Source of the DNA: Gracilibacter sp. BRH_c7a
Lineage (GTDB): Bacteria; Bacillota; Desulfitobacteriia; Desulfitobacteriales; Syntrophobotulaceae
Direction of reading: 5' to 3'
Assembly: GCA_001516055.1 (NCBI GenBank)
Contig: LOEZ01000077.1
Location: 1-64,000 of the forward strand
DNA length: 64,000 nucleotides
Part shown: piece after piece, positions 9,489 to 50,576 of the stretch
Position numbering within the stretch: position 1 is the stretch's first letter
Layout of the letters: every line of letters begins with the position of its first letter
Made by a program: the position numbers and the translations under genes
The notes under the pieces: generated by a model
The model's database searches: none
Told to the model about the DNA's origin: nothing
Seen by the model: the letters and a program-made list of their open reading frames with translations, nothing else

Positions 9489-10490
9489 ATGGCTAATAAT
9501 AAGCAGCTCGAAATTGATGCGTCTATTCTACTAATTGAACTTAAGGATGCAAATAAGAATATGAAGAAGGTTATTCAATCAATACAGCAGATTGCCCAGC
9601 AAACGAATCTTCTATCCTTAAACTCGGCGATCGAAGCTGCAAGGGCTGGTGAAGCAGGACGTGGATTCAGCGTAGTGGCAGAAGAGATCAAAAAGCTGGC
9701 AACAAGGAGTTTAGAAACCACGAAAGAAAGCACAACAATTATTGAAGATATTCAGACTAAAGCCAATGACGTGATGGCGATAAGAACTGCAGATGTAGCA
9801 TACGACACGATTGATAAGATTGATCGCAATCTATTTGAACGAAATTGCGATGCCCAAGCATGGGCTAGTTTCGATAAAGTTAAAGGTTGTTTGAATAATG
9901 CTAATCGTAATATTGAAGCATGTGCGCTATTGAAGAAATTAGTAGATATCTATGAAGTTTACAATGATCTTTTCGTGCTCGATCTTGAAGGGATAGTCGT
10001 TGCCGCAGGCGTTCATCATGAACTTATTGGGAGAAATATGGGTAATCAAGATTGGTTTACAGATGCGAAAAAAGCAAACTCTATATCGGTCAGCGATTTA
10101 TTTTTATCTCCTTTAGATAATCTGTATACAGTAGCTTATACCTGTCCTATTCTCAGCGAAGACGGCAAAATCCTCGGGTATTTCTCAACGCGATTCAACT
10201 GGAACTTTATTTATGATATTATCGATTCAGCAAGGATAGGAGAAAAGGGAGACATTTGGATTATTAATAAAGATGGATACGTTATCGCCTGCCGGAGTCG
10301 TAAAGGTATTCTAATAGATAATATAAAGGATTTAGAGGCAGCCCGACGTGCCATGAACGGCGAAGAATACGGATATTTATTAGAAAGTGATTCTTATGGG
10401 AATTCGAAAATCTACGGTTATGCACATACGCGGGGCTATAATGCATATAAGGGAAAAAAATGGTCAGCTGTTATTCGTGAAACTATTTAG
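9489..10490 (+). CDS. Soluble MCP-like protein: signalling domain followed by Cache sensor
   Basis: A 333-residue protein. Residues about 10-100 are the tip and descending part of a methyl-accepting chemotaxis signalling domain ([20 protein letters not shown] and [13 protein letters not shown]). Residues about 110-333 form a Cache-type sensor ([47 protein letters not shown]). No signal peptide, transmembrane helix or HAMP domain is visible. The order is reversed from classical receptors, in which an extracytoplasmic sensor precedes the signalling hairpin, so this should be a cytoplasmic receptor sensing an internal ligand. The adaptation regions of a full-length receptor are missing. The ATG follows AGGGGGATAAG. 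A leader terminator precedes it. Confidence 0.82.
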
Positions 10491-11043: not shown

Positions 11044-11318
11044 TTTCTTGTGTGATTAGGATCTTCCAATACTAAAAAACATATCGGGACAGTCGTTTGC
11101 CTTAAAGAAACCACCGTAAGAAGACTTGAGAAATCATGGCTTCTTTTAGTTGTGTTTGTATGTTACGGATATGTAATGAAAAAAAGAAGATACCTGTAGT
11201 TCCAAGTGTCTATATTATGGGGATAAAGTCAATAATGTTAGATAGGAATTCGAAAATAGGAATAATATGTTAAAGTCCTTCCACGTTTGGAAACAGGCAG
11301 TAATTGAGGGAGTTATGT

Positions 11319-12743
11319 ATGAACATCAATTTAAAACAAGGTTGTCTGCTTATAATGTCAGCTTATATCGTAATTTCATCCTCATTCTATTTTATTGCCA
11401 AGGAACAACTAGCCTACAGTCTTGTTTCAAAAGAAATGAGTACCTCTGAGCAATTACTTCCATTAGGAGAAATTGTAGAAGGCATGACAGTTGTACAGCC
11501 TTTCATACTTAATGCAGACAATTTGGAGAGTATTTCCCTCTACACTGCTACTTATGATCGAATGAACGTAGGGCAATTAACAGTACAGATCATTGATTTG
11601 TCTGCAAAATTAGTTTTAAGAGAAAAGGATTTTGATTTAACAAGTATTCCAAATAGCGGTTTGTTAAAGTTTAATTTAGAAAACCCAATACAGGATGTAA
11701 ATGGAAAAATGCTTGCAATAAAGCTTACGTCCAATGGGGAAAAGGGGAATGCTGTAACTGTTTGGCAAAAAAACAATCTTTCTCAAGGACAGGCATTATT
11801 AATTAATGGATACGAGACTGACAAGATATTATGTTTTTCACTTATAGGTAGGAGTGTAAGTTGGGTTGGCCAGTATTATTTTTATGTGGCTTTATTGGTT
11901 GGGTTTATTTTGGGAATTTATCTATGGCACTTAATTTTGGCAGAGAAGAAAGGTCGGATATGTTTAGGGTTACGTGTAATTGATGCTTTTACCAAATACA
12001 GATTTTTATTAAGCCAGCTGATAACGAGGGATTTTAAAACAAAGTACAGACGGTCAGTACTCGGTATACTTTGGAGTTTTCTTAATCCACTGTTGACCAT
12101 GACTGTTCAGTATGTCGTCTTCTCGACATTATTTAAGACAGACATTAGTAATTTTCCAGTATACCTTCTCATTGGTATTGTATTTTTTAGTTTCTTTTTA
12201 GAATCTACTTCTATGTCTTTAATGTCCATTGTAGGGAACGCCAATCTAATTACCAAAGTATATATGCCAAAGTATATTTATCCAGTATCGAGAGTGCTCT
12301 CGTCTTCTATCAACTTCCTTTTGTCTATGATTCCATTATTGATTGTTGTGATATTTACCAAAACGCCTTTTACATTGGCCTACCTGCTTTTGCCTTTTAT
12401 AATTGTATGCCTTGTAGCCTTCTGTATTGGAATGGGAATGTTATTATCATCAGCTATGGTTTATTTTCGTGACACGCAATTTATCTGGAGTGTTCTCAGT
12501 ATGTTATGGATGTATAGTACTCCTATTTTCTATCCGGTTAGTATTATACCGGAGAAATTCATACTGCTTTATAAAATAAATCCACTATACCATTTTATTG
12601 ATTTCAGTCGTGTTGTTATTATGCAAGGAGTCTCGCCTGAGCCCCAAGCTTATGTAATTTGTGCATCATATGCTTTGATTATGCTGGTAATTGGTGGGTT
12701 AATATTTAATGCGACTCAGAACGGGTTTGTTATGCATATATAA
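11319..12743 (+). CDS. Wzm/TagG-type polysaccharide ABC exporter permease with extra N-terminal domain
   Basis: About 474 residues, against 260-280 for a normal Wzm/TagG permease. The C-terminal 270 residues are the ABC-2 permease (FLLSQLITRDFKTKYRRSVL, GILWSFLNPLLTMTVQYVVF, and the tail YKINPLYHFIDFSRVVIM). In front stands an N-terminal membrane helix, a beta-rich domain of about 150 residues, and a second helix (YYFYVALLVGFILGIYLW), which should place the extra domain outside the membrane. The frame opens at a TTG (11304), but the ATG at 11319 has GAGGGAG six bases upstream and is preferred. The ATPase gene follows 12 bases later. It probably exports the glycan built by the genes to 19226. 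Function of the extra domain is unknown; cap recognition is one idea. Confidence 0.85.
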   Translation: MNINLKQGCLLIMSAYIVISSSFYFIAKEQLAYSLVSKEMSTSEQLLPLGEIVEGMTVVQPFILNADNLESISLYTATYDRMNVGQLTVQIIDLSAKLVLREKDFDLTSIPNSGLLKFNLENPIQDVNGKMLAIKLTSNGEKGNAVTVWQKNNLSQGQALLINGYETDKILCFSLIGRSVSWVGQYYFYVALLVGFILGIYLWHLILAEKKGRICLGLRVIDAFTKYRFLLSQLITRDFKTKYRRSVLGILWSFLNPLLTMTVQYVVFSTLFKTDISNFPVYLLIGIVFFSFFLESTSMSLMSIVGNANLITKVYMPKYIYPVSRVLSSSINFLLSMIPLLIVVIFTKTPFTLAYLLLPFIIVCLVAFCIGMGMLLSSAMVYFRDTQFIWSVLSMLWMYSTPIFYPVSIIPEKFILLYKINPLYHFIDFSRVVIMQGVSPEPQAYVICASYALIMLVIGGLIFNATQNGFVMHI

Positions 12744-12755
12744 GGAGCAACATCA

Positions 12756-13472
12756 ATGATAAATGTTGAGAATGTTTCAATGCGCTTTTTTATAACACAG
12801 GATAAAATACAGAGCTTAAAAGAATATGCAATAAAATTCCTGACAAGACAAATTAAATATCAGGAATTTTGGGCGCTTAAAGATATAAGCTTTGAGGTTA
12901 ATAAAGGCGAGGTAGTGGGTATTATCGGAAGAAATGGTGCTGGGAAAAGTACCTTGCTGAAAGTGATTTCGGGGATCTTACGTCCAACTATAGGTTCATC
13001 TGTTTGTAAAGGTAATATTGTGCCTATGTTGGAACTCGGTTCAGGATTTGACCACGATTTGACAGGCCGAGAGAATATATTCCTCAATGGAGCTATTTTA
13101 GGCTACACAAAAAAATTTTTGGAAGACAAGTATGAAGAAATTCTAGAGTTTTCCGAGTTGGGAAGATTTATTGAGGTGCCACTTAGAAACTATTCCTCTG
13201 GTATGCTTATGCGTTTAGCTTTTTCTATTGCTACGGTTGTAAATCCTGAAATACTTATTGTGGATGAAATATTAGCTGTTGGTGATGCCAATTTTCAGGA
13301 AAAGAGTAAGGCTAGAATGCTGGAACTTATGAGTGGCGGGACTACAGTCTTGTTTGTTTCACACAATCTGGAAGAGATTCGCAGTATGTGTAATACGGTC
13401 ATTTGGTTGGATAGTGGACTGATAAAAATGATTGGTGATGCCAAGGAAGTATGTAATGCATACTCAATCTAA
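12756..13472 (+). CDS. Wzt/TagH-type polysaccharide ABC exporter ATPase (short form)
   Basis: A 238-residue ATPase with Walker A GRNGAGKSTLLK, the polysaccharide-exporter segment GSGFDHDLTGRENIFLNG, a signature NYSSGMLMRLAFSIAT, Walker B EILIVDEILAVGD, and the switch His in LFVSHNLEE. It stops right after the nucleotide-binding domain and has no C-terminal carbohydrate-binding domain of the kind found on Wzt proteins that recognise capped O-antigens. Start ATG 12756 has AAGGAG upstream. It pairs with the permease directly before it. Confidence 0.93.
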   Translation: MINVENVSMRFFITQDKIQSLKEYAIKFLTRQIKYQEFWALKDISFEVNKGEVVGIIGRNGAGKSTLLKVISGILRPTIGSSVCKGNIVPMLELGSGFDHDLTGRENIFLNGAILGYTKKFLEDKYEEILEFSELGRFIEVPLRNYSSGMLMRLAFSIATVVNPEILIVDEILAVGDANFQEKSKARMLELMSGGTTVLFVSHNLEEIRSMCNTVIWLDSGLIKMIGDAKEVCNAYSI

Positions 13473-13493: not shown

Positions 13494-15812
13494 ATGGATT
13501 ACGGGAAGTTATACAATCAAAATTATTATGAAAAATCATGTGGAATCGAGTCATATTTAGATACAGATAGATGGGCTCCATTTTATGAAAGTATTGCAGA
13601 TAAAATTATTGACACGCTGAACCCAAGTAAAGTTCTCGATGTTGGTTGTGCTGTAGGTTATTTAGTTGCTGCACTTCGTGACAGAGGTGTAGAAGCTTAT
13701 GGTATCGATGTGTCTGAGTTTGCCATTAGTAAAGTTCGAGAGGATATAAGGCAATATTGCAAAGTTCATTCCGCTTTAGAGCCATTTCCAAAAGGTTTCC
13801 CTCAAATTTATGATTTGATAACAACGATTGAAGTGGCAGAACACCTCTACGAATCTGATGGAATTAGATTAATTGAAAATATCTGTAAGTATACCAAAAA
13901 CATAATTTTTTCTTCCTCTCCTGATGATATTACAGAGAAGACACATTACAATGTGCAACAGGCAGAGTATTGGGCCAAGAAATTTGCTAAAAACGGATTT
14001 ACAAAAGACTTGACCTATGATGCAGCATTTATTGCACCACAGGCAGTGATGTTTGTGAAAAGAGAATATAAGGCAGACAGATTAATAGAAGATTATGAAA
14101 GAACTATTCGTATTCTTAAACAACAAATGCATATAGAAGAATTCAAGAATAAAGCGCAGATAGTTGATTTAAATACTTTGGTGTCTAGCAGGGATAAGCA
14201 AATAGCGAATCTTGAAAGTGTCAGCCATGATAAGGATAAGAGAATAGGCGAAATTGAAAAGAACTTAAGAAATGTCCAACAGGAAAATAATGAATATGTA
14301 GACAATATTATAAAACTTCAAGCTAGTATTGACGAGTTTTCTCACTCAAGTAAATTGTTAAACGAAGATATTATCCGTTGGCAATCGGCCCATAAGGATA
14401 TATCTAATTCTATTTACTGGAGAATTACAAAACCAATCCGTTTAATAATAGATTCTTTAAAATGGTTAATATTCCGAATCAAGCATAATATTCTAACTCG
14501 ATCGATGAAAAAAATATGGCTCTCTGTTCGTACCGTTGGCTTTAGAAATACACTTCGAAAGATAATCGGGAAACTATCTGGTAAGTCTTCCGTTTTGGTC
14601 CGCAAGTCGCAATTTCCGGATAAGACGGATAATTACGATAGAAACGTTAATCTTATTTTAAATGAAAGATTTCGTAGTATTCAACCTATCCAGACTGTTA
14701 ATGGAGAGGAAGAAGTTCGAAGGCTTAATTTTGTTACGGATAGCATTGATTCACATAGTCTTTTGGGTGGTGTAGCGACAGCACTCATTATCGCGACTGA
14801 ATTTGCAAATCGAAATAATTTGACTCTGCGTATTATTACGCGTACAACTCCGGTCAATCCTGTTAACTACGGAAATATTATGAAGATAAGTGGTGTTCCT
14901 ACTGCTGAAAATGTAATCTTTTATTCTGATCACGACAGAGATGTCTTTGGGAATGTTAATTTTAAGCTTGAATTTAATGAAAATGATATTTTCTTCGCTA
15001 CATCGTGGTGGAGTGCTGCTGCTATAAAAAAGACCTCACCTTGGAAAAATTTTTATTATATCATTCAAGAAGTAGAAACTTTCTTTTATCCACATGGGGA
15101 TGAACATCACCTTTGTTCCGAAATTATGCAGGCCGATAATATCTATTACATTGTGAATTCGAAATATTTATATGATTATTTTAAAGTAAATGAACCTAAT
15201 ATCGTGGAAAGAGGCGTGTACTTTGAACCTGCTTTTCCTAAAGCACTATATCAGCCAAAAGAATTTGTGCCAAAAAAGAAATATAAACTCTTCTTTTATG
15301 CACGTCCAAGCAATCCGCGAAATATGTTTTCCTATGGTTTAGAGCTGCTAGAAATGAGCATAAAGAATGGAATCCTAGATACGAATGAGTGGGACATTTA
15401 TTGTGCAGGAGAAGAGATTCCGGGATTAAAGTTTAGTAACGGCTATGCAGCAATAAATATGGGGTTAATGAATTGGCAGGAATATGGTAAATTCCTGAGT
15501 GGAGTTGACCTCGCTCTGACGCTTATGTATACACCGCATCCGAGTTATCCGCCTTATGATGTCGCTAGTTCCGGTGGTGTAGTCGTAACGAATTGCTGGG
15601 GAAATAAGACAACTTTCGACTTCTGTAAGAATGTTATTTTAAGCAACCTAGATCAAAATGAATTCTTAGAATCTATAAACCGCGGGATTGCACTAGCAAA
15701 GGATATTAAACAGAGAAAAGAAAACTATGAAAAAGCGACTATACCGAGGACGTGGAAAGAAACTTTGGGCTCAACGCTCGAATTTATGGAGGAAAAGCTA
15801 AATCATGTATAA
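13494..15812 (+). CDS. Methyltransferase / coiled-coil / WsaF-like glycosyltransferase fusion
   Basis: A 772-residue protein in three parts. Residues about 1-190 are a class I SAM methyltransferase (VLDVGCAVGYLVAALRDRGV, then TTIEVAEHL). Residues about 195-310 are charged and heptad-like, predicted coiled coil. After a link (SIYWRITKPIRLIIDSLKW) common in surface-glycan transferases, residues about 400-770 resemble the WsaF rhamnosyltransferase of S-layer glycan synthesis (DSHSLLGGVATAL, YYIIQEVETFFYPHGDEH, FFYARPSNPRNMFSYGLELL). The combination recalls length-control proteins that methylate a glycan end and measure the chain with a coiled coil (WbdD, WsaE); that role here is inference. ATG 13494 follows GAGGAG, 21 bases after the ATPase gene. 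Confidence 0.85.
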   Translation: MDYGKLYNQNYYEKSCGIESYLDTDRWAPFYESIADKIIDTLNPSKVLDVGCAVGYLVAALRDRGVEAYGIDVSEFAISKVREDIRQYCKVHSALEPFPKGFPQIYDLITTIEVAEHLYESDGIRLIENICKYTKNIIFSSSPDDITEKTHYNVQQAEYWAKKFAKNGFTKDLTYDAAFIAPQAVMFVKREYKADRLIEDYERTIRILKQQMHIEEFKNKAQIVDLNTLVSSRDKQIANLESVSHDKDKRIGEIEKNLRNVQQENNEYVDNIIKLQASIDEFSHSSKLLNEDIIRWQSAHKDISNSIYWRITKPIRLIIDSLKWLIFRIKHNILTRSMKKIWLSVRTVGFRNTLRKIIGKLSGKSSVLVRKSQFPDKTDNYDRNVNLILNERFRSIQPIQTVNGEEEVRRLNFVTDSIDSHSLLGGVATALIIATEFANRNNLTLRIITRTTPVNPVNYGNIMKISGVPTAENVIFYSDHDRDVFGNVNFKLEFNENDIFFATSWWSAAAIKKTSPWKNFYYIIQEVETFFYPHGDEHHLCSEIMQADNIYYIVNSKYLYDYFKVNEPNIVERGVYFEPAFPKALYQPKEFVPKKKYKLFFYARPSNPRNMFSYGLELLEMSIKNGILDTNEWDIYCAGEEIPGLKFSNGYAAINMGLMNWQEYGKFLSGVDLALTLMYTPHPSYPPYDVASSGGVVVTNCWGNKTTFDFCKNVILSNLDQNEFLESINRGIALAKDIKQRKENYEKATIPRTWKETLGSTLEFMEEKLNHV

Positions 15813-16989
15813 GATTACAGTTCCCTCAAAAGGGAATATAGCACCGTGGGAGGTTGATTTTCCATCACGTTGCCGTCTGCTGCGAGAATATTTTAAGGAA
15901 GGTATTCCCATTGCTCTTCTTTTATATGAGCGTGCAGATACCTCTACCTTTCGTTACCGTGCGTATAATATGATGCAGATTACAAGATACAGTAGAAAGT
16001 GGAAAAGTATTTATTTTTTCATGAATGAAATCGAAATGCTACTGCCATATCTTTCGAAGATATCCTTAGCGATCATAATCCGGGTTAGATGGACGCATGT
16101 TATTGAAAAATTCATTAACGAGGTAAAGTCGAATCATATACCACTGCTTTTTGATGTGGATGATCTGATTTTTGATACAAAATATCTTCCCATAGTTACA
16201 AATACCCTCAATGTACCTTTCAAAGATGATAGAGATTACGAATTTTGGTTTGGATGCATCTCAAGGATTGAATATACGGCTGCCAGAGCTGACGGCTTTA
16301 TTGCAACAAATTCTTTTTTAGGAGATAGGCTGAAAGCTAAATTTAATAAACAATATGGTGTTATTCCTAATTTTTTAAACGAGGAGCAATTGAGTATTTC
16401 AGAAAAATGCTGTGAACAAAAGAAAAATCAGATTTCCAGAAATCCTTTTACTATCGGTTATTTCAGCGGGACGCCATCACATGTAAATGATTTCAGAATG
16501 ATTTCCCAAGAGATTATTTTACTTCTTGAGGAGTTTAAGAACATCCAGTTTAAAGTGGTTGGTTACATGGAGTTTCCAAGAGAGATACAGCCGATGATCA
16601 AGAATGGAAGAGTAACCTTTACTCCGCTTGTGGATTTTTTAGAACTTCAGTGCCTTATTTCTCAGGTCGATGTCAATGTTGTTCCGCTTGTCAAAAATAT
16701 ATTCACGAACTGTAAGTCGGAATTAAAATATTTTGAGGCAGCTGTTGTAAATACGATTACTTGCGCAACCCCTACTGAAGTATATAGAAAAGCTATAAAT
16801 CATGGAGAAAATGGATTTTTATGCGAGCAGGGAAAGTGGTATGACACACTTAAGTATATATACAAAGAAAACGAAGGTCGCCAAGAAATATTAAAAACTG
16901 CTTATAAACATGTATTCGACTGTTATACAGGTTCTAGAATTTTAGAAAAGATTGAAGAAACTTATGATAAGTTTTCGATAGCGGAATAA
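15805..16989 (+). CDS. Glycosyltransferase, GT4-like
   Basis: A 394-residue protein beginning inside the last eight bases of the fusion gene, with GGAGG before its ATG, so it is translationally coupled. Features are YERADTSTFRYRAYNMMQ at the N-terminus, LLFDVDDLIFD, FIATNSFLGDRL and a GT-B style C-terminal half (FTIGYFSGTPSHVNDF, SQVDVNVVPLV, ELKYFEAAVVNT). The last segment is the donor-site region in GT4-type enzymes. No membrane segment is seen. Its donor is probably a nucleotide sugar used in the same exported glycan; acceptor unknown. Confidence 0.8.
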   Translation: MYKITVPSKGNIAPWEVDFPSRCRLLREYFKEGIPIALLLYERADTSTFRYRAYNMMQITRYSRKWKSIYFFMNEIEMLLPYLSKISLAIIIRVRWTHVIEKFINEVKSNHIPLLFDVDDLIFDTKYLPIVTNTLNVPFKDDRDYEFWFGCISRIEYTAARADGFIATNSFLGDRLKAKFNKQYGVIPNFLNEEQLSISEKCCEQKKNQISRNPFTIGYFSGTPSHVNDFRMISQEIILLLEEFKNIQFKVVGYMEFPREIQPMIKNGRVTFTPLVDFLELQCLISQVDVNVVPLVKNIFTNCKSELKYFEAAVVNTITCATPTEVYRKAINHGENGFLCEQGKWYDTLKYIYKENEGRQEILKTAYKHVFDCYTGSRILEKIEETYDKFSIAE

Positions 16990-17002: not shown

Positions 17003-18169
17003 ATGACAAATGTTTTATTGCTCTATGAATACTTCATACCGTCAGTTAGATTGTGTGGATACGAACAACTAAGCTATATAGCGAAAAGCAAGCAAATAAA
17101 TTTTCAACACTGTGAAGTTAGTAGAATTACCAAGGAACAGATTAGAAACTGCGATGTCGTCATTATGGTTAGAAATAGTTCCTACCAAGCAGAAGTATTA
17201 GCAGGGGTTTTTAAGAAAGCAAATAAATATTTGGTATATGTTCTTGATGACGATTTACTCAATGTACCACTAGGCCTTTCTTCAACATGGTATTTCCAAT
17301 TAGAAGAAGTAAAAAGAAGCATAAACAAAATAATGTTCCTAAGCGATTGTCTCTTGTCTCCCTCTCAGAGAATATTGGATAAATATGGAGATAAGTTCAA
17401 TAGAATAGGGTTGATTGAGGAGCCATCTTTACCGTATGAGTGTTCAAAAAAAGAAAAGAGCCAAAAAGTTAAAATCGGGTTTGCCGGTTCAATAGATAGA
17501 TGTAAGGATATTGACATTTTATTAACGGATGTTATTGAAACAATACTAGAAAGATATAAGGAAAGGGTAAGTTTTGAGTTTTTCGGTGTAAAGCCAAAAG
17601 TAATTGAATCAATGGGGTTGACTTACTATCCTTACGAAGACAATTATGAGGAATATAAAAAGAAAATGTGGGAGCTGAATTGGCATATAGGGTTAGCTCC
17701 AATGCCTGATTCAGACTTTCACCAATATAAGCACTATAATAAATATATCGAATATAGTTCACTTGAGATAATTGGCATATACTCCAATGTTTATCCATAT
17801 ACAGAGGTAATAAAAGACGGGGTAAACGGATTTTTGTGCGATAATAACAAAGCTGCTTGGGTTAAGACGATTTCTTATTGCATTGATGAGTACGACAAAC
17901 TAGTTAGCATGTTACAAAACATTAGAAATCAAGCGGTAGATAAATTCTCAATTGAGAAAACTGCAGAGATCTATATCAGAGCAGTACCACAAATATTAGA
18001 TTATCATTCAGACAAAAATAAATTATGTATTCAATCATATTATTTGAAATATCTACAAATAAATATCTTTATTAAAAAGAGTTTCTTATTTGTTAAAAGA
18101 AATAGATCAAAGTCATTGATCAAATTATTTACTAAACTTCGGGATTATATTAATTGTGAAGATGTTTAG
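17003..18169 (+). CDS. Glycosyltransferase-like protein
   Basis: A 388-residue protein with a GT-B-like layout: an N-terminal half with VLLLYEYFIPSVRLCGYEQL and YVLDDDLLNVP, and a C-terminal half with KVKIGFAGSIDRCKDIDILL, HIGLAPMPDSDFHQYKHYNK and GVNGFLCDN. The last two match the donor-binding end of GT1/GT4-type proteins. The tail is basic and hydrophobic (NIFIKKSFLFVKRNRSKS), perhaps a membrane-surface anchor. It starts 13 bases after the previous transferase and is very AT-rich like its neighbours. The sugar is unknown. Confidence 0.75.
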   Translation: MTNVLLLYEYFIPSVRLCGYEQLSYIAKSKQINFQHCEVSRITKEQIRNCDVVIMVRNSSYQAEVLAGVFKKANKYLVYVLDDDLLNVPLGLSSTWYFQLEEVKRSINKIMFLSDCLLSPSQRILDKYGDKFNRIGLIEEPSLPYECSKKEKSQKVKIGFAGSIDRCKDIDILLTDVIETILERYKERVSFEFFGVKPKVIESMGLTYYPYEDNYEEYKKKMWELNWHIGLAPMPDSDFHQYKHYNKYIEYSSLEIIGIYSNVYPYTEVIKDGVNGFLCDNNKAAWVKTISYCIDEYDKLVSMLQNIRNQAVDKFSIEKTAEIYIRAVPQILDYHSDKNKLCIQSYYLKYLQINIFIKKSFLFVKRNRSKSLIKLFTKLRDYINCEDV

Positions 18170-18284: not shown

Positions 18285-19226
18285 GTGGATTTAAGCGTAA
18301 TAATCGTCAATTGGAACTCAGCGGAGCTCTTAATTAAGTGCTTAGCTTCAATTGAAAAGTGGTTTAATGGTTTCACTTATGAGGTGTTTATCGTTGATAA
18401 TTACTCTGAAAAAGATGATATAGATATCTTAAAAAATCGAATAAAACCCCTGTTTCCCTGGGTTAACATTACTTATAATAAAACGAACGTAGGTTTTGGC
18501 CGAGCTAATAACCAGGTTCTCCATCTATGTTCAGGAAAATACACTTTATTTCTGAATCCTGATACCTGCTTTATTAGTAACGGGATGAATAAACTCTTGA
18601 CGATATTTGAGCAAGATAAAATAGGTTTGGTCAGTTGTAAGTTATTAAATAAAGATCAAACAGTACAATTATCATGCTTTCACTTCCCATATTTTTGGAG
18701 AATCGTGGCAAACTCGTTGTTTCTCGGTAAGATTTGGCCAGCAAACAAACTAAAGTTTTTTCGCTATAAAGTTGAAGATCAGGGAAACAAGTTGTACCCA
18801 GATTGGGTGCTAGGTGCATTTATGTTGCTCCCCACAAAGGTAATTAGGAGAGTTGGCGGGTTTGATGACGCTATATTTATGTATGGCGAAGATATGGAGC
18901 TATGTTACCAAATAAGAAAAATTGGATTGGTTGTTTGCTATGTTCCTGATTTTAAGGTTGTGCATTATGGTGGTTCTTCTTGGCGACGAGCATGGTCAGA
19001 AGCAAGAAAAGAAGCAAAGGTATATAAAGCGATTCTCTACTTTTACAATAAACATAGGAGTAGGAGGTTAGTATCAGCTGTTCGGGTAGTTTTCATATTA
19101 GGGGCAATCCTAAGGATCATCATCTATGCATTTGCTTCTCTGATTACTTGTGGTCTCAAGAAGAGCTTAAATAATTTAAAAGTCCAGTGGTTAATTTTGG
19201 TAACCCAATTGAGGAGTGAATTCTGA
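18285..19226 (+). CDS. GT2 family rhamnosyltransferase-like glycosyltransferase
   Basis: A 313-residue GT-A fold enzyme: DLSVIIVNWNSAELLIKCL at the N-terminus, FIVDNYSEKDD, NVGFGRANNQVL, LFLNPDTC (DXD-like), VLGAFMLLPTKVIRRVGGFD and MYGEDMELCYQIRK, the full set seen in WcaE/RfbF-type rhamnosyltransferases. The C-terminal 60 residues hold one or two hydrophobic helices (VVFILGAILRIIIYAFASL). The start is GTG at 18285 with GAGG 7 bases upstream. The neighbouring rml genes make rhamnose a likely donor. It ends the transferase block and is followed by a terminator. Confidence 0.88.
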   Translation: MDLSVIIVNWNSAELLIKCLASIEKWFNGFTYEVFIVDNYSEKDDIDILKNRIKPLFPWVNITYNKTNVGFGRANNQVLHLCSGKYTLFLNPDTCFISNGMNKLLTIFEQDKIGLVSCKLLNKDQTVQLSCFHFPYFWRIVANSLFLGKIWPANKLKFFRYKVEDQGNKLYPDWVLGAFMLLPTKVIRRVGGFDDAIFMYGEDMELCYQIRKIGLVVCYVPDFKVVHYGGSSWRRAWSEARKEAKVYKAILYFYNKHRSRRLVSAVRVVFILGAILRIIIYAFASLITCGLKKSLNNLKVQWLILVTQLRSEF

Positions 19227-19401: not shown

Positions 19402-20262
19402 GTGCATGTTGTGGTTTGTGGATCAGGAGGTATGCTTGCTACAGATGTTAGTATGATTTTTAACCAAAGAGGACACCAAGTTTCGGACCTAAGTATCAAA
19501 GACTTAGATATAACTAAGCTCGAAGAAGTTCGGTTTAGGCTAAAAGCACTGCAACCTGACCTAGTATTCAATGCGTCAGGCTTTACTAATGTCGACCAAT
19601 GCGAAAGCGAACCAGATCTTGCTTATCAGGTCAACTGTCTGGGAACGCGTAACTTAGCTGTTGTCTCCGATGAGCTAGGAGCTGCTATGGTGCACATGAG
19701 CACGGACTATGTGTTTGAAGGGAAGAGCAACAAACCATATCGAGAATATGACTCAGTGAATCCTCTGAATATTTACGGTAAATCAAAATATGATGGCGAA
19801 TTAATGGTACGCCAGCATTGTCGGCACCATTATATCGTTAGAACATCTTGGCTGTTCGGCAATCGGAGCAACAACTTTGTACTGACGATGCTTCGTTTGG
19901 CTAAGGAAAGGAAATTATTGAGCGTCGTAAATGATCAAATGGGTAGCCCCACTTATACTAAGGATTTAGCAGATGCAATTGCAGAATTAGTTGAAAAGCC
20001 TGCTTTTGGGACATATCACCTTACCAATAGTGATTGTTGCACTTGGTTTAGATTTACCCAAGAAATTTTGGAATTAGCGGAGATTGGCAATGTAAGTGTA
20101 GAACCAATCACAACCGAGCAACTAAAGTGCCCAGCAAAGCGGCCAAAATATTCAGTTCTTGATAACTATGTGTGGCGTTTGGACGGTCACAAAGTGTTAC
20201 GCTCATATAGAGAGGCCCTAATAGCTTATCTCGTAGAAGAAGGTTTGCGTAGGGGGGGATAG
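19402..20262 (+). CDS. rfbD: dTDP-4-dehydrorhamnose reductase
   Basis: A 286-residue RmlD/SpsK that reduces dTDP-4-keto-L-rhamnose to dTDP-L-rhamnose with NADPH. Marks are VVVCGSGGMLATDV (cofactor site), MVHMSTDYVFEGKSNKPYRE, YGKSKYDGE (YxxxK) and VRTSWLFG. The start is GTG 19402 with AGGGGGA six bases upstream. Unusually this gene leads the set, in the order rmlD-rmlA-rmlB-rmlC-like, with a 3-base gap to rmlA. Confidence 0.93.
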   Translation: MHVVVCGSGGMLATDVSMIFNQRGHQVSDLSIKDLDITKLEEVRFRLKALQPDLVFNASGFTNVDQCESEPDLAYQVNCLGTRNLAVVSDELGAAMVHMSTDYVFEGKSNKPYREYDSVNPLNIYGKSKYDGELMVRQHCRHHYIVRTSWLFGNRSNNFVLTMLRLAKERKLLSVVNDQMGSPTYTKDLADAIAELVEKPAFGTYHLTNSDCCTWFRFTQEILELAEIGNVSVEPITTEQLKCPAKRPKYSVLDNYVWRLDGHKVLRSYREALIAYLVEEGLRRGG

Positions 20263-20265
20263 CCA

Positions 20266-21015
20266 ATGAAAGGTGTAGTATTAGCCGGAGGTACTGGGTC
20301 AAGGCTCCTTCCCTTAACGAAAGTAACAAATAAACACTTGTTACCGATTGGTAAATGCCCGATGATTTATTATCCTTTAGCCAGACTTAAAGAAGCTGGG
20401 ATTAGGGAAATTTTAATTGTTACTGGCAGGGAACATATGGGAGATGTGGTCAATCTATTAGGCAGTGGCAATGATCTGGGTTTAAACCTTACATTTAAAG
20501 TCCAAGACCAGGCGGGGGGGATTGCACAAGCGTTAGGTTTGGCAGAAGAATTTGCTTGTAAGGAAGCAGTGACTGTAATCCTAGGTGACAACGTGTTTGA
20601 AGGAAGCTTAAGAGAATTTGTTGAAGATTTTAAAAGACAAGGACTTGGTGCTAAAATTCTACTGCAAAAAGTGAAGGGTCCGGAAAGATATGGAGTCGCA
20701 GAGTTAGACGAGAACAATAAAGTCTTGTCAATCGAAGAAAAACCTTTAACACCTAAAAGTAACTATTGTGTAACTGGAATTTATATGTTTGATTCGGATG
20801 TCTTTAGCATTGTGAAAACTTTAAAACCTTCTAAGCGAGGAGAATTGGAGATAACGGAAGTGAATAATATTTACATCCAACAATGCACTCTTTCCGCAGA
20901 TATCTTTACCGGTTGGTGGATTGATGCAGGAACCTTCGATTCCTTAAGGGATGCACATGACTTAGTCCAAAAAAGTAATTTGGATGATCAAGTTCTCAAT
21001 TTATTAGAATCATGA
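20266..21015 (+). CDS. rfbA: Glucose-1-phosphate thymidylyltransferase (short RmlA/SpsI type)
   Basis: A 249-residue nucleotidyltransferase joining dTTP and glucose-1-phosphate. It has VLAGGTGSRLLPLTKVTNKH with the GGTGSRL signature, VILGDNVFEGSL, RYGVAELDENNKVLSIEEKP and GELEITEVNN. It is about 40 residues shorter than classical RmlA (about 290), as in B. subtilis SpsI, and so lacks the C-terminal allosteric/dimer region. It sits between rmlD and rmlB, which supports the dTDP-sugar role. Confidence 0.9.
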   Translation: MKGVVLAGGTGSRLLPLTKVTNKHLLPIGKCPMIYYPLARLKEAGIREILIVTGREHMGDVVNLLGSGNDLGLNLTFKVQDQAGGIAQALGLAEEFACKEAVTVILGDNVFEGSLREFVEDFKRQGLGAKILLQKVKGPERYGVAELDENNKVLSIEEKPLTPKSNYCVTGIYMFDSDVFSIVKTLKPSKRGELEITEVNNIYIQQCTLSADIFTGWWIDAGTFDSLRDAHDLVQKSNLDDQVLNLLES

Positions 21016-21036: not shown

Positions 21037-22074
21037 GTGTATCGTATATTAGTGACTGGTGGAGCTGGTTTCATTGGGAGTAACTTTATTTTATATATAT
21101 TGAAGTCCTATGCAGGTTGGCACATCATCAATTTAGATGCACTAACCTATGCAGGTAATCTTGAAAACCTTAAAATGATTGAACAAAATTCAAATTACCA
21201 GTTTATAAAAGGAAGTATAAGCAATTATGCCTTAGTAGAGAGATTGGCTCAACAAGGCTTGGATGGAATTATCAATTTTGCAGCAGAATCACACGTTGAT
21301 CGGAGTATTGAAGATCCCGGGGTATTTGTGGAAACCAATATTAAGGGAACACAAACTTTGCTCGAGGTAGCCCGGAAGTATAAGGTGGGAAGGTTTCTGC
21401 AAGTATCAACAGATGAAGTGTATGGCAGTTTGGGCGATTCCGGGTATTTTACAGAGACAACACCGCTAGTGCCCAATAGTCCTTATGCAGCTAGTAAGGC
21501 AGGTGCTGACCTTTTAGTCCGTGCTTATCACCAAACTTTCGGATTGGATGTGGTGATAACACGTTGTTCGAATAACTATGGACCATATCAATTCCCAGAA
21601 AAATTAATACCATTGATTATTTCAAATGCCTTAGAAGACAAGCAGCTTCCTGTATATGGGGATGGACTGAATATTAGAGATTGGCTACATGTTGCAGATC
21701 ATTGTGCGGCTATAGCCTTAGCCTTTATTAAAGGCAAGAGCGGAGAGATTTATAACGTTGGCGGGAACAGTGAAAGGACAAATCTCGAGGTCGTTAAAAT
21801 CATAATCAGCTTGCTCTCAAAACCTGAGTCCTTGATTCACTATGTCAAGGATAGACTCGGACATGACAGACGTTATGCGATTGATGCCTCTAAGATCAGC
21901 GACGAACTCGGTTGGAAACCTCAATACAGCTTTGAGACAGGCATCAGAGAAACCGTAGAATGGTACTGTACAAATAAGGCCTGGTTGGGAAAAATCAAAG
22001 CGGGTCAATATCGCGATTACTTTTCAAAAATGTATGGTAATGATTTAGGAGGACTTGAATATGCAAATAATTGA
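21037..22074 (+). CDS. rfbB: dTDP-glucose 4,6-dehydratase
   Basis: A 345-residue extended SDR: ILVTGGAGFIGSNFILYIL (NAD site), INFAAESHVDRSIEDP, FLQVSTDEVYGSLGD with the catalytic Asp-Glu pair, YAASKAGADLL (YxxxK), TRCSNNYGPYQFPEKLIPL and HVADHC. These are diagnostic for RmlB/SpsJ, which makes dTDP-4-keto-6-deoxyglucose. The start is GTG 21037. It overlaps the next gene by about 14-20 bases. Confidence 0.94.
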   Translation: MYRILVTGGAGFIGSNFILYILKSYAGWHIINLDALTYAGNLENLKMIEQNSNYQFIKGSISNYALVERLAQQGLDGIINFAAESHVDRSIEDPGVFVETNIKGTQTLLEVARKYKVGRFLQVSTDEVYGSLGDSGYFTETTPLVPNSPYAASKAGADLLVRAYHQTFGLDVVITRCSNNYGPYQFPEKLIPLIISNALEDKQLPVYGDGLNIRDWLHVADHCAAIALAFIKGKSGEIYNVGGNSERTNLEVVKIIISLLSKPESLIHYVKDRLGHDRRYAIDASKISDELGWKPQYSFETGIRETVEWYCTNKAWLGKIKAGQYRDYFSKMYGNDLGGLEYANN

Positions 22075-22522
22075 GGGGGTAGTGACCAAGCAACTCACGA
22101 AGCATTGTGATGATCGAGGTTTTTTTATGGAGATTTTGCGTGAGGATGATGATTTGCTTTCACATTTTGGACAGGCTTCGATGTCGATGTCTTATCCAGG
22201 GGTAATCAAGGCCTTTCACTACCATAAACGACAGGACGATATATGGTTTTTCCCTATCGGCAACGCCCAGGTCGTGTTGCACGACTTACGTGAGAATTCA
22301 CCAACAAAGGGAGTAACCAATGTTTTTTATTTGGGAGAAACAAATCCTTTGCTGTTGGTAATCCCTAAAGGAGTTGCCCATGGGTATCGTGTCTTGGGCT
22401 CCAGTCCGTTAATAATCACTTATTTCACCACGGAAGCTTACAATCCAGCCAACCCTGATGAACGAAGACTGCCTTGGAATGATGCAGATATTAACTTTGA
22501 CTGGACAACCGAAAACAGGTAA
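22061..22522 (+). CDS. SpsL-like dTDP-sugar 3,5-epimerase family cupin
   Basis: About 153 residues, related to RmlC but of the short SpsL type, with the opening DDRGFFMEILREDDDLLSHF, AFHYHKRQDDIWFFPIGNA, VLHDLRENSPTKG and IPKGVAHGYRVLG. The frame opens at TTG 22055, but AGGAGG lies 8 bases before the ATG at 22061. It takes the place of rmlC in the rhamnose set, so it probably does the 3,5-epimerisation of the 4-keto intermediate; no other RmlC is in the window. It is a paralogue of the cupin at 6678. Confidence 0.85.
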   Translation: MQIIEGVVTKQLTKHCDDRGFFMEILREDDDLLSHFGQASMSMSYPGVIKAFHYHKRQDDIWFFPIGNAQVVLHDLRENSPTKGVTNVFYLGETNPLLLVIPKGVAHGYRVLGSSPLIITYFTTEAYNPANPDERRLPWNDADINFDWTTENR

Positions 22523-38115: not shown

Positions 38116-40182
38116 TTAGTTTTCACCTATTAAAATATCAAAATCTTCTAATATTTGAGACTGATCCAAATTACCTAATACCAAATACCGAGGTATAACA
38201 TATTCATGATATTCAGATTCAACATCCTCAAGAATTTCAGTAGCGTTACCCCAAATTACCATTCCTGATGTAATTCCCACTTGTTCTAAAATACTTTTTA
38301 ATTCTGGACTGATGCCTTCTTCATTCTCTTTCTGTGTGGGGTAATAGGCACCAAAAGGATAACATATTTGTGTAGGTGTAACACCTATACCAGGAGTGCA
38401 TGACAAAATTTCTAAAAACGCTTTTCCCGGACCTGTGTATGGTGATGAATATTCCCAAGCATAATCGACATTATCTATAATCATTCCACTTGGATATACA
38501 TCTGTACCTTCTCGTGAATTTACTTCATATTGAGGTGCATATTGGAAGCTTGAATCATCTAGTTGAGTCCAAGTATTATTTAAAGAATCCCAAGCTGGCC
38601 GTGGTAGATCTTGTTGATCAGTATATATTCTTATCAACCCAGTTCCGTTCGGGCTTCTGTTAATAGTTTTAAAAGTAATATCATACTCTTGACCTTTTTT
38701 AAACTGATAGGGGCTAATGTTAACTGTCTGCCAGGTCCAGTCCTGCCAATTAGAAGAGAACCTTGAAATTTTCTGTCCATTTATATATACATCAATAATC
38801 AATGGGTACCAATTTCCTATGTGAGATACAGTTTTAAATCTCAAAACTTCACCAATAAATGATTTAGCTGGTGCAAATTTAATATTTGTATTTGCTAAAC
38901 TTCCGTCAGTATATGTTCCGCCTAGAACTAAGCACTCTAAGGAATCATTTTCTTCGAATCCGGTTGTATTAGCATCCCAACTTGCCGCTAGATATTTATT
39001 TATAACTTTAGTGTTCCTACTTAGGTCTTCTAAAACATACTGTTGAAACTCTTCTAGTGTTGCCACCCTACCATTATCCCCGGCAAGTATTAAACCTGCT
39101 TGGGCAGGCCATTTTTCTTGTGCTCCATAAGACATTCCAGTACATGTAGTAGTTAACTCATAATCTCCAGAAAAATTTGGGATAGCATAAATATTGAAAG
39201 AAGCATTTCCAACATTTTGAGTTGTAAATGTTATCGTATACGTCTTATTAGCTTCAATTGTAAATGATCTATCGAAATCTATAGTTGCGAATTCTCTTTC
39301 CGGCCACTGACTGCGCGTTTCATATTGCGTTGTACTTATTGTCTTTTTTGCAACTTCTGTGCCATTAATGTCTATTTTTATATCAGCATTATAGCCGCTG
39401 CTAAAGGGAGAATGTAAAGAAGTCCAGACTCTCATTTTATTTACTGTCACGTTTTCTTTGGCTTTAAATTCAATAGTACTTGATATTGGTTGATTAGTTT
39501 TTAGGTCGGTACCAAACAAAGGGAATCCCCAAGTTGCACCATCTACATGAGTTAAATCCCAGTACCATCTTGTATCGTCTCTGTTGATATAAATAAAATC
39601 ACCATTATCAATATAACTCGGTCCTTCTAATATTGGTGCTGGTACAACTGTCCCATTTTCCATAAATAAATTATAATGATGCATATTATAGGTGTGACTA
39701 AGTAGTTCACAATACCCAGAATCATATATATCTTTTATACCAGCCCAAGTCATGTATCCATCTTCGGGATATATTGTGCCAAGTTTTCTTCCGATTATAG
39801 CTATACCAAAGGGTATTTCACTTTCGACTAACCATTGTGCTGCAATATCTATTGAGTCTCTTGCATCATCAAATATTATTGTAGCGATAGGAGTATCAGT
39901 ATCTATAGATATCTTGTTTAAATACCACTCATTATATTGAGAAGGTGGAACAAAGGTATACCCTTTGTTCTCAAGATAATTGATTTGCTCTTTAAAGTCT
40001 TCTAAATAGCTTACATATTCTGATTTGTCTGCTTCAATAGTCGTAAATCCATGATAGCATAATGCAATATTATTTGAATTTTGTGAGTGAATTTTTTCGT
40101 TTTCTTGCTTACCAAAAGCTGCATTGGTAAAAAATAAACTTATAATAATAATCAATATGCAATATGATGCCTTATGTTTCAT
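38116..40182 (-). CDS. Secreted polysaccharide deacetylase interrupted by beta-sandwich inserts
   Basis: 688 residues with a signal peptide (ILIIIISLFFTNAAFG). Residues about 38-175 are the first part of a PgaB/NodB-type deacetylase: IALCYHGF, YLENKGYTFVPPSQY, ATIIFDDARDS (catalytic/metal Asp pair) and LLSHTYNMHHYN (metal His). The expected next helix (ATLEEFQQYVLEDLSRNTKV) appears only near residue 350, and the last core motif (CYPFGAYYPTQ) near 605. The two gaps, each about 170-230 residues, are filled with beta-rich segments (such as TNQPISSTIEFKAKENVTV and SFIGEVLRFKTVSHIGNWYP) that look like carbohydrate-binding jelly rolls. The catalytic domain would still fold around them. It probably N-deacetylates an extracellular glycan; substrate unknown. 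Confidence 0.82.
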   Translation of the reverse strand: MKHKASYCILIIIISLFFTNAAFGKQENEKIHSQNSNNIALCYHGFTTIEADKSEYVSYLEDFKEQINYLENKGYTFVPPSQYNEWYLNKISIDTDTPIATIIFDDARDSIDIAAQWLVESEIPFGIAIIGRKLGTIYPEDGYMTWAGIKDIYDSGYCELLSHTYNMHHYNLFMENGTVVPAPILEGPSYIDNGDFIYINRDDTRWYWDLTHVDGATWGFPLFGTDLKTNQPISSTIEFKAKENVTVNKMRVWTSLHSPFSSGYNADIKIDINGTEVAKKTISTTQYETRSQWPEREFATIDFDRSFTIEANKTYTITFTTQNVGNASFNIYAIPNFSGDYELTTTCTGMSYGAQEKWPAQAGLILAGDNGRVATLEEFQQYVLEDLSRNTKVINKYLAASWDANTTGFEENDSLECLVLGGTYTDGSLANTNIKFAPAKSFIGEVLRFKTVSHIGNWYPLIIDVYINGQKISRFSSNWQDWTWQTVNISPYQFKKGQEYDITFKTINRSPNGTGLIRIYTDQQDLPRPAWDSLNNTWTQLDDSSFQYAPQYEVNSREGTDVYPSGMIIDNVDYAWEYSSPYTGPGKAFLEILSCTPGIGVTPTQICYPFGAYYPTQKENEEGISPELKSILEQVGITSGMVIWGNATEILEDVESEYHEYVIPRYLVLGNLDQSQILEDFDILIGEN

Positions 40183-49292: not shown

Positions 49293-50576
49293 TTACTTTT
49301 TCGATGATATATATCTTTCTGCCATGATTCCAGCAACAGCACCATCAGAGGAGGCGGTTACAACTTGACGTATTTGTTTAGTCCTTATGTCACCTGCTAC
49401 GAAGACTCCTTCAATATTAGTTTGTGTATCTTCAGAAGCTATAACATAACCCCATTGATCAATGTTAACTTGCCCTTTGTATAGGTCGGATTTAGGTTGG
49501 ATTCCTATATATACAAATGCTCCATCTGTAACTACGTCTTGAAGTTCTTTTGTCTTTAAGTTTTCAATAACTACACTTGTCAATGAATGTCCCTGACCAT
49601 TTACTTTTCTGACCTCTGAATCCCAGATCACATCAATTTTTTCATTTTGAAAAGCCTCTTCTTGGGCAGTCTTTGAAGCTTGGAAGTGATCAAACTGGTG
49701 GATTACTGTGACATGAGAAGCCCATCTGGTTAAAAATACTGCTTCTTCTACAGCTGAGTTTCCTCCTCCAACTACTACAACCTTTCTACCCTCATACATT
49801 GAGCCATCACAGGTTGCACAATAGTGGATTCCACGCCCTTTGAACTCGTCAGCTCCTTCAGCTGGGAGGGCCCTGGGTTGAGCACCAGATGCAATTATTA
49901 CTGCCTTTGCATAGTATTCTGTATCTTCAGTTCTAACATATTTTAAGTCACCTTGAAGCTTTACTTCGGATATCTCCTTTAAGTCATCTATTGTTGCTCC
50001 AAAGGATAAAGCTTGTTCCCTCATGTTGTTAATGAGCTCTTTGCCTCTTACAACTCCTGGAGTCCCGGGATAATTTGCCACATGGTATGTGGAAGCAGCC
50101 TGGCCTCCAGGAACGCTTTCATCCAAAATTACTGTATTTAGCTTAGCCCTTGATGCATAAATTCCTGCAGAAAGTCCCGAAGCCCCTGCACCCATGATAA
50201 TTACGTCGCAATCAACTCTTTTCAAGGGTTCTGAGGGTATTACATCTCCTAATATTTCTTCGATAGCTTTTCTAACCTGCGGCTTATTCATAAATCCATT
50301 TAGCCTTGAACCTACCTCTTGACCGTCTTTAAAGAACAATACTGTTGGACTGCTACTAACATTAAGGCTTTTGGCAAATTCTCGATTATCTTGCCTTAGT
50401 ATTTTTATAAACTTTATATAATCTCCGTATTTTTCTGCCATCTTTTCGAAGATAGGGGCAAGAACCTCGCATGGTGCACAATCTTCCGAATAAAAATCAA
50501 CGATTACAGGTGTTTTACTATTTAGTGCTTCTTGTTCAAATTTATCAGCATTTATTGTTATAATTCTTTCGCTCAT
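49293..50576 (-). CDS. Thioredoxin - thioredoxin reductase fusion
   Basis: 427 residues. Residues 1-110 are a thioredoxin (TPVIVDFYSEDCAPCEV, redox Cys33 and Cys36, with CAPC in place of CGPC). Residues 120-427 are a flavin thioredoxin reductase (VIIMGAGASGLSAGIYASRA for FAD, HYCATCDGSM with Cys253/Cys256, VVVGGGNSAVEEAVFL for NADPH, IEGVFVAGDIRTKQIRQVV). The order Trx then TrxR is opposite to the Mycobacterium leprae fusion (TrxR then Trx). It lies 23 bases after the radical SAM gene, so it probably feeds electrons to a thiol in that pathway. No separate trx or trxB is in the window. Confidence 0.94.
   Translation of the reverse strand: MSERIITINADKFEQEALNSKTPVIVDFYSEDCAPCEVLAPIFEKMAEKYGDYIKFIKILRQDNREFAKSLNVSSSPTVLFFKDGQEVGSRLNGFMNKPQVRKAIEEILGDVIPSEPLKRVDCDVIIMGAGASGLSAGIYASRAKLNTVILDESVPGGQAASTYHVANYPGTPGVVRGKELINNMREQALSFGATIDDLKEISEVKLQGDLKYVRTEDTEYYAKAVIIASGAQPRALPAEGADEFKGRGIHYCATCDGSMYEGRKVVVVGGGNSAVEEAVFLTRWASHVTVIHQFDHFQASKTAQEEAFQNEKIDVIWDSEVRKVNGQGHSLTSVVIENLKTKELQDVVTDGAFVYIGIQPKSDLYKGQVNIDQWGYVIASEDTQTNIEGVFVAGDIRTKQIRQVVTASSDGAVAGIMAERYISSKK

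Follow-up and report, generated by a model that had tools for sequence, protein, structure and literature searches.

A permease gene of Gracilibacter sp. BRH_c7a encodes an outer beta domain between two extra transmembrane (TM) helices, followed by the usual core of a Wzm-type glycan exporter, and this layout is real. The gene lies in a stretch of 64,000 nucleotides (contig LOEZ01000077.1, positions 1 to 64,000), which we call the window. Most likely the module is an exit-side handling or docking device of an exporter clade which does not rely on the carbohydrate-binding domain (CBD) of Wzt, and the outer module points to possible handling of the chain during its exit from the cell. The missing inner sugar-binding domain, already absent in the relatives of this pump, is probably a separate matter. 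New here is that the permease module belongs, by sequence profile, to the same family as modules fused to DUF2142 proteins or standing alone beside them. To our knowledge, studies of glycan ABC exporters have mostly dealt with the cytoplasmic choice of substrate and the exit step is little known; a permease-fused outer module from a family of glycan-assembly membrane proteins would offer a direct handle on that step.

Exporter genes and their neighbourhood

The features of the exporter locus, all on the + strand, are as follows.

11319-12743, +: wzm-type ABC-2 glycan permease, N-terminally extended, 474 aa (a TTG start at 11304 is possible)
11343-11399, +: extra TM helix 1, residues 9-27 (hydropathy; helix 5-34 in a low-confidence model)
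11451-11837, +: predicted outer beta-sandwich module, residues about 45-173 (charge counts, hydropathy, models, relatives)
11886-11942, +: extra TM helix 2, residues 190-208 (hydropathy; helix 183-210 in a low-confidence model)
12012-12620, +: ABC2_membrane core, residues 232-434 (Pfam)
12756-13472, +: wzt-type ATPase, 238 aa, without C-terminal CBD (Pfam, alignments to solved chains)
13494-15812, +: 772-aa protein with methyltransferase (41-142), coiled-coil-like (about 222-281) and WsaF-like glycosyltransferase (410-728) parts
15805-16989, +: glycosyltransferase, group 1 (Pfam)
17003-18169, +: glycosyltransferase, group 1 (Pfam)
18285-19226, +: glycosyltransferase, family 2 (Pfam)
19402-20262, +: rmlD-like gene (dTDP-rhamnose synthesis)
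20266-21015, +: rmlA-like nucleotidyltransferase (gene name read from sequence)
21037-22074, +: rmlB-like dehydratase (gene name read from sequence)
22055-22522, +: rmlC-like epimerase (Pfam)

The permease frame contains no stop from either the TTG at 11304 or the ATG at 11319 through 12743, and since the same layout is found stop-free in three other genomes, it is no chance open frame. From the N-terminus, a TM helix is followed by the all-beta outer domain, another TM helix and a core typical of these permeases. This core is of the Wzm/TarG ABC-2 type and matches Pfam ABC2_membrane at residues 232-434 (E 6.9e-22); upstream of residue 232 there is no significant Pfam match. Among solved structures, Wzm and TarG chains are closest, with alignments beginning at residue 224 or later. 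The adjacent ATPase has a Wzt/TarH-type nucleotide-binding domain (NBD) and stops right after it; above the Pfam cut-off it shows one ABC transporter domain and otherwise only generic P-loop matches. It therefore lacks the C-terminal CBD of the CBD-type Wzm/Wzt subclass, as the sequence-only reading had it. Wzt_C (PF14524) has no match in the window genome (95.84% complete), so no recognisable copy of the CBD is supplied in trans.

Concerning the genes downstream, the 772-aa protein is a probable chain terminator judging from its domains, of which the coiled-coil-like stretch was called by a home-made coil score. The gene order wzm-wzt-WsaF-like-rml agrees with the S-layer glycan (slg) order in the available text of PMC2943079, where wzm, wzt and WsaE/WsaF-type genes are followed by rml genes downstream. 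The surrounding glycosyltransferase and rml genes point to a lipid-linked glycan as the exported substrate. With regard to the oligosaccharyl transferase WsaB, another component of slg systems, the window genome has three Wzy_C-type and two LytR-CpsA-Psr matches, all on other contigs. LpxC was not found in this genome, and an outer-membrane or periplasmic reading of the outer face was set aside for that reason; the outer face is thus probably the wall side and not the periplasm. Together with the kinship of the genome to Desulfosporosinus, which belongs to the same order, this makes a Gram-positive-type envelope likely.

Other genes of the window have unusual arrangements of their own. A chemoreceptor-like frame at 9489-10490 has its parts in reversed order (MCP signalling part, then Cache sensor), with no obvious TM helix by eye. 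The frames at 49293-50576 and 50600-52669 comprise thioredoxin and thioredoxin-reductase-like parts in one ORF and an adjoining radical SAM protein with a C-terminal DUF5714.

The outer module and its sequence family

Between the two extra helices of the window permease there are 13 K+R and 17 D+E, and the 45 residues after the second helix hold 11 K+R and 3 D+E; a strongly positive inner flank is also seen in two relatives. Based on these charge counts and on hydropathy, in the window permease and the two relatives, the stretch between the helices is placed outside, and we infer that the module is on the outer face of the membrane. The AlphaFold2 model of residues 29-191 plus one relative is all-beta (mean pLDDT 60.6, pTM 0.63, core blocks 67-86), with eleven strands and no helix of note, from an alignment of two sequences only. 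The full-length AlphaFold model of the permease was too poor to serve as a structural basis and was dropped, yet the same all-beta fold recurs in it. Hydropathy, charge counts and the all-beta model thus bear out a beta-rich domain between two extra helices, proposed from the letters alone, and the charge counts agree with its proposed outer rather than cytoplasmic position.

The modelled fold is probably a beta sandwich, with moderate confidence. Foldseek returned no match at E 0.001 or better for this model. In VIA-align the Z-scores reach 8.2 against GOLD, CBM, PHR, BcsB and capsid beta sandwiches; the neighbours include CBM15, CBM36, CBM6, a Bacteroides CBM and BcsB as well as non-sugar folds, and the CBM neighbours (Z 6.7-7.6) are level with unrelated folds, viral capsid, GOLD and PHR among them. 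Z-scores so low (about 7-8) give the fold class and no more. The structure prediction advised in the sequence-only reading yielded a probable beta sandwich with CBM and BcsB carbohydrate-binding domains among its neighbours, but non-sugar folds are equally close and a carbohydrate-binding fold as such did not emerge. The module alone gave nothing significant against Pfam, NCBIfam and PDB sequences, and a search of IMG/VR found no relatives. A Cas2-family match (E 0.03-0.17, below the cut-off) was discarded as chance.

The search for the same permease layout, also advised there, succeeded: besides the window it is found in Desulfosporosinus acididurans (L040), G368 (L051) and G593 (L052). The D. 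acididurans permease is 51% identical to that of the window over the full length (E 1.9e-154). The samples searched were 61 relatives, 398 genomes of the phylum and 391 genomes of the class of G368. The first module profile matches at least seven of the 398 phylum genomes, one match being a Lectin_like protease at 1.8e-4; an eleven-sequence profile matches at least six of the 398, and a six-sequence profile at least ten of the 391 genomes of the class. Judged by these profiles, the module family is rare in the searched genomes.

Outside permeases, the module is the N-terminal part of DUF2142 membrane proteins in five genomes (G446, G277, G524, G759 and G804). Stand-alone TM-module proteins directly adjoin a DUF2142 gene in three of three cases (G164, G059 and G780); the stand-alone proteins L060, L061 and L053 are 179-222 aa long, each next to a DUF2142 gene. 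Profiles seeded mainly with permeases recover non-seed stand-alone forms and DUF2142 fusions (e.g. 5.1e-28, 1.9e-18 and 1.9e-14; weakest fusion 5.6e-6), and by profile match the window module falls in this DUF2142-associated TM-module-TM family. Weaker matches lie at the C-terminus of a G614 glycosyltransferase and in a G762 sulfatase-type protein.

Some further likenesses were observed. L060, L061 and L053 look like lactococcal WpsH as described, a likeness by description. At 15155-17410 of L051, after the methyltransferase of G368, a 751-aa membrane protein has an N-terminus which is marginally module-like (hhalign probability 20%). In the window, a polysaccharide-deacetylase-like protein (38116-40182, - strand) has beta stretches weakly matching PHR, DUF4082 and the outer-module profile (E about 1e-3). 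Among plasmids, 156 records match the permease, nearly all matches listed covering the core only, and no plasmid record matches a stand-alone module. Five Bradyrhizobium plasmid matches (H4-H8) have alignments which start at query residue 85 (23% identity) and run across an annotated permease and ATP-binding protein; by their alignment these are possibly another extended permease.

Because the relatives of the module sit on or beside DUF2142 membrane proteins, it would, by analogy, handle the glycan after translocation. We put at about 0.45 the probability that this Wzm/Wzt system exports a lipid-linked glycan containing rhamnose and that its outer module acts on the chain once it has crossed the membrane. 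The substrate would be an S-layer glycan or secondary wall polymer, the exporter clade would normally work without a CBD on its ATPase, and the permease would have acquired an outer-face beta-sandwich module anchored by two TM helices. Two copies of the module would flank the channel exit, where they may keep hold of the chain as it emerges, or of its lipid-linked end, and may pass the chain to an outer ligase or a later enzyme. Sugar binding by the module, and the part of the chain that it would bind, are suggested by analogy.

It is possible, if somewhat doubtful, that the module binds a partner protein (a ligase, a GT-C enzyme, or an S-layer or wall component) rather than sugar, and so couples export to the next step. 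Relatives fused to DUF2142 proteins or encoded as their next-door partners would be expected of a subunit-like module, and the available text of PMC12599335 and PMC10821137 treats a WpsH-type outer-loop protein as the partner of the DUF2142 protein WpsI; the likeness to WpsH is, however, one of description. No DUF2142 protein was found in the window genome, so the partner suggested by the relatives of the module is absent here. This counts against docking, for which no candidate partner came up, and also against handling of the glycan.

Exporters with and without outer domain, ATPase extension and putative terminator

We compared 55 permeases and their neighbouring ATPases. From 24 relative matches, L029 (no core visible, the module lying at the end of a contig), L030 and L082 (distant) and L031 lie outside the 55. 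From 58 matches in the class of G368, G368, G593 and 32 others were used, some picked for long open frames; the 24 left out have no frame over 338 aa. An outer domain of the window type is found in four of the 55. The ATPase has a C-terminal extension of 158-213 aa in 14 exporters (five scanned, PF14524 in all five) and of 13 aa or less in 38, among them all four with the outer domain; 34 exporters have neither the outer domain nor a long ATPase extension. Two Wzt-type ATPases (L133 and L139) carry a mid-sized extension of 76-80 aa and are neither CBD-less nor furnished with a full CBD, and L140, with no ATPase match, belongs to neither class.

In the permease tree, the four outer-domain permeases and L113 form one 100/100 clade. 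L113 (G451:C119, 352-3794) pairs a permease of 266 aa that has no extension with an ATPase lacking the CBD, and rmlD lies upstream; its genome has no module-profile match among the matches listed. In the tree of ATPases reduced to the NBD, no sequence is more identical to that of the window than L113 (74%), and the 14 CBD exporters all fall to one side of a 100/99 branch. With 34 CBD-less exporters that have no outer domain, L113 of the same clade included, the absence of the ATPase domain is a clade trait and not a consequence of the outer domain; on the tree, its loss and the gain of the outer domain are probably separate events. L113 presumably exports without the module, which counts against a glycan-handling role.

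The permease tree requires at least four gains or losses of an N-terminal TM hairpin: in the window group; in L063 and L114 (two helices, short loop); in L129, called from hydropathy only and with an unsure start codon; and in L123. The last (G685:C3, 4498-5841, - strand, TTG start likely) is a CBD-less permease whose extra TM helices enclose another kind of outer domain (about 140 residues), for which hhalign found no detectable relation to the window module (probability 0.2%). Hairpins occur in eight of 41 CBD-less exporters (counting the two with mid-sized extensions and L140) vs none of 14 CBD exporters, a difference which is not significant (p 0.098). The module could also be a lineage-specific decoration, inessential for export and kept for permease stability or exit shielding. 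Hairpins that arose about four times, with short loops (L063, L114, L129) or an unrelated domain (L123), speak for this, and the fast divergence of the module (30% identity between the window and D. acididurans, vs 68% in the core) would also fit a loosely constrained decoration. The module is, however, preserved in permeases of four genomes belonging to several families, and its family turns up again in proteins encoded in clusters for glycan assembly; we regard decoration as quite unlikely.

Concerning the putative terminator, a methyltransferase-coil-glycosyltransferase protein adjoins the exporter in the window, G368 and G685. The neighbour in G685 is a methyltransferase-coil-GT2-GT2 protein, its methyltransferase 63% identical to that of the window, with the two permeases in different clades. 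A profile of the window-type methyltransferase matches two of 341 genomes, G368 and G685, both of which are also seeds of the profile. Beside L113 is a methyltransferase protein whose long central part leads to a terminal coiled coil. The contig breaks off within its gene; we take the protein to be WbdD-like in domain order. Within two genes after wzt, a Pfam methyltransferase is found at four of five outer-domain loci, the exception being L052 (G593). Over the same two genes there are at least two such proteins (one that of L113) at 35 CBD-less loci without outer domain, and at least seven at 14 CBD loci. Fisher's test gives p 0.0008 for these neighbours and is unfair as the loci share descent; outer domain and terminator offer two independent contrasts, too few to test.

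The sequence-only reading had proposed that the outer face may have taken over recognition or release of a capped glycan from the ATPase, and had pointed to co-occurring cap enzymes. A candidate cap enzyme is indeed encoded next door in the window (13494-15812), but not near L052. A shift of cap recognition or release would suit the combination of outer domain, terminator-like methyltransferase-coiled-coil protein and genome without Wzt_C, the same specific methyltransferase beside two unrelated outer-domain permeases (G368 and G685), and the methyltransferase frequencies at outer-domain loci vs the 35 loci without. In its fullest form, a coiled-coil terminator would make a methyl-terminated glycan that leaves the cell through a CBD-less pump, and a reader on the outer side of the permease, replacing the cap-binding domain of the ATPase, would check or capture its finished end. 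Two or more times, unrelated domains (window type and G685 type) would then have arrived at this solution in company with one and the same terminator; we see a small chance of this. Against any such move stand the 34 exporters without either domain, L113 with its methyltransferase-coil protein and neither domain, the outer domain of L052 with no methyltransferase in the next two genes, the two contrasts, and the fact that an outside check alone cannot keep uncapped chains out of the channel. The claim of a move does not hold up well, and we consider it unlikely. The main point of interest is instead how terminated chains are handled without a CBD, a real puzzle common to L113. Natural variants are at hand for comparison: outer domain plus terminator (window, G368, G685), terminator alone (G451) and outer domain alone (G593).

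Comparison with known systems

Wzm/Wzt (type V ABC) exporters of O antigen and S-layer glycan with known structure (6m96/8dku, 9qfx) resemble the window exporter in ABC-2 core, NBD and adjacent genes: permease residues 230-435 match 6m96 chain B (E 1.5e-14) and the NBD matches chain A (E 6e-60). No match to a solved permease begins before residue 224, so nothing in the solved chains corresponds to the extension. According to the available text of PMC9445017, a CBD is part of the Aquifex ATPase, unlike that of the window. Klebsiella O1/O2a-type exporters have an ATPase without CBM, as in the window; in the available text of PMC11231755 their export is coupled to synthesis, with no terminator-controlled chain length and no outer domain described, whereas the window exporter has an outer domain.

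WbdD, WsaE and Klebsiella O7 ORF6 combine methyltransferase, coiled coil and glycosyltransferase in one protein, as is probably the case at 13494-15812, where the module order is that of Klebsiella O7 ORF6 as given in PMC11231755. In the parts of that paper available, every terminated O-polysaccharide named has a CBM on Wzt, and a coiled-coil protein is named as the hallmark by which the terminated-chain strategy is recognised. The terminated systems described there thus carry the CBM on the ATPase, whereas no Wzt_C was found in the window genome; in the window, G368, G685 and L113, coiled-coil methyltransferase proteins lie beside CBD-less exporters. The window neighbourhood appears to break the pattern in which a terminator implies a Wzt CBM, in an exporter clade of Gram-positive type. 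One other CBM-less exporter has a terminal methyl group, dispensable for export, in the available text of PMC10629545, so there is precedent for a methyl end in the absence of a CBD. The window layout is not described in the literature searched, mostly without subscription papers, in the text available of PMC9746298, PMC9445017, PMC2943079, PMC11231755, PMC10629545, PMC12599335 and PMC10821137, among others.

Outer domains of other systems resemble the module to different degrees. PF18560 (Lectin_like) shows weak profile similarity through one such domain (L039, 1.8e-4); none of the module family members scanned reaches PF18560, and hhalign against the L039 domain gives a probability of 6%. 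BcsB is the outer partner of cellulose synthase, with a beta-sandwich carbohydrate-binding domain at the polysaccharide channel exit. It is a separate subunit of the synthase; its Z of 7.2 against the module is too low for kinship, and no sequence similarity between the two was found. Lactococcal WpsH, the partner of the DUF2142 protein WpsI, has a single large loop on the outside, flanked by two membrane segments, in the available text of PMC12599335 and PMC10821137, the latter using the labels WpsH and WpsI both ways round; such partners share the TM-outer part-TM plan of the window module, a likeness by description only. Closest are the DUF2142 proteins with an N-terminal outer domain, which have the same TM-beta module-TM plan and, by profile, the same sequence family, whereas in the window the module is carried by an ABC permease instead.
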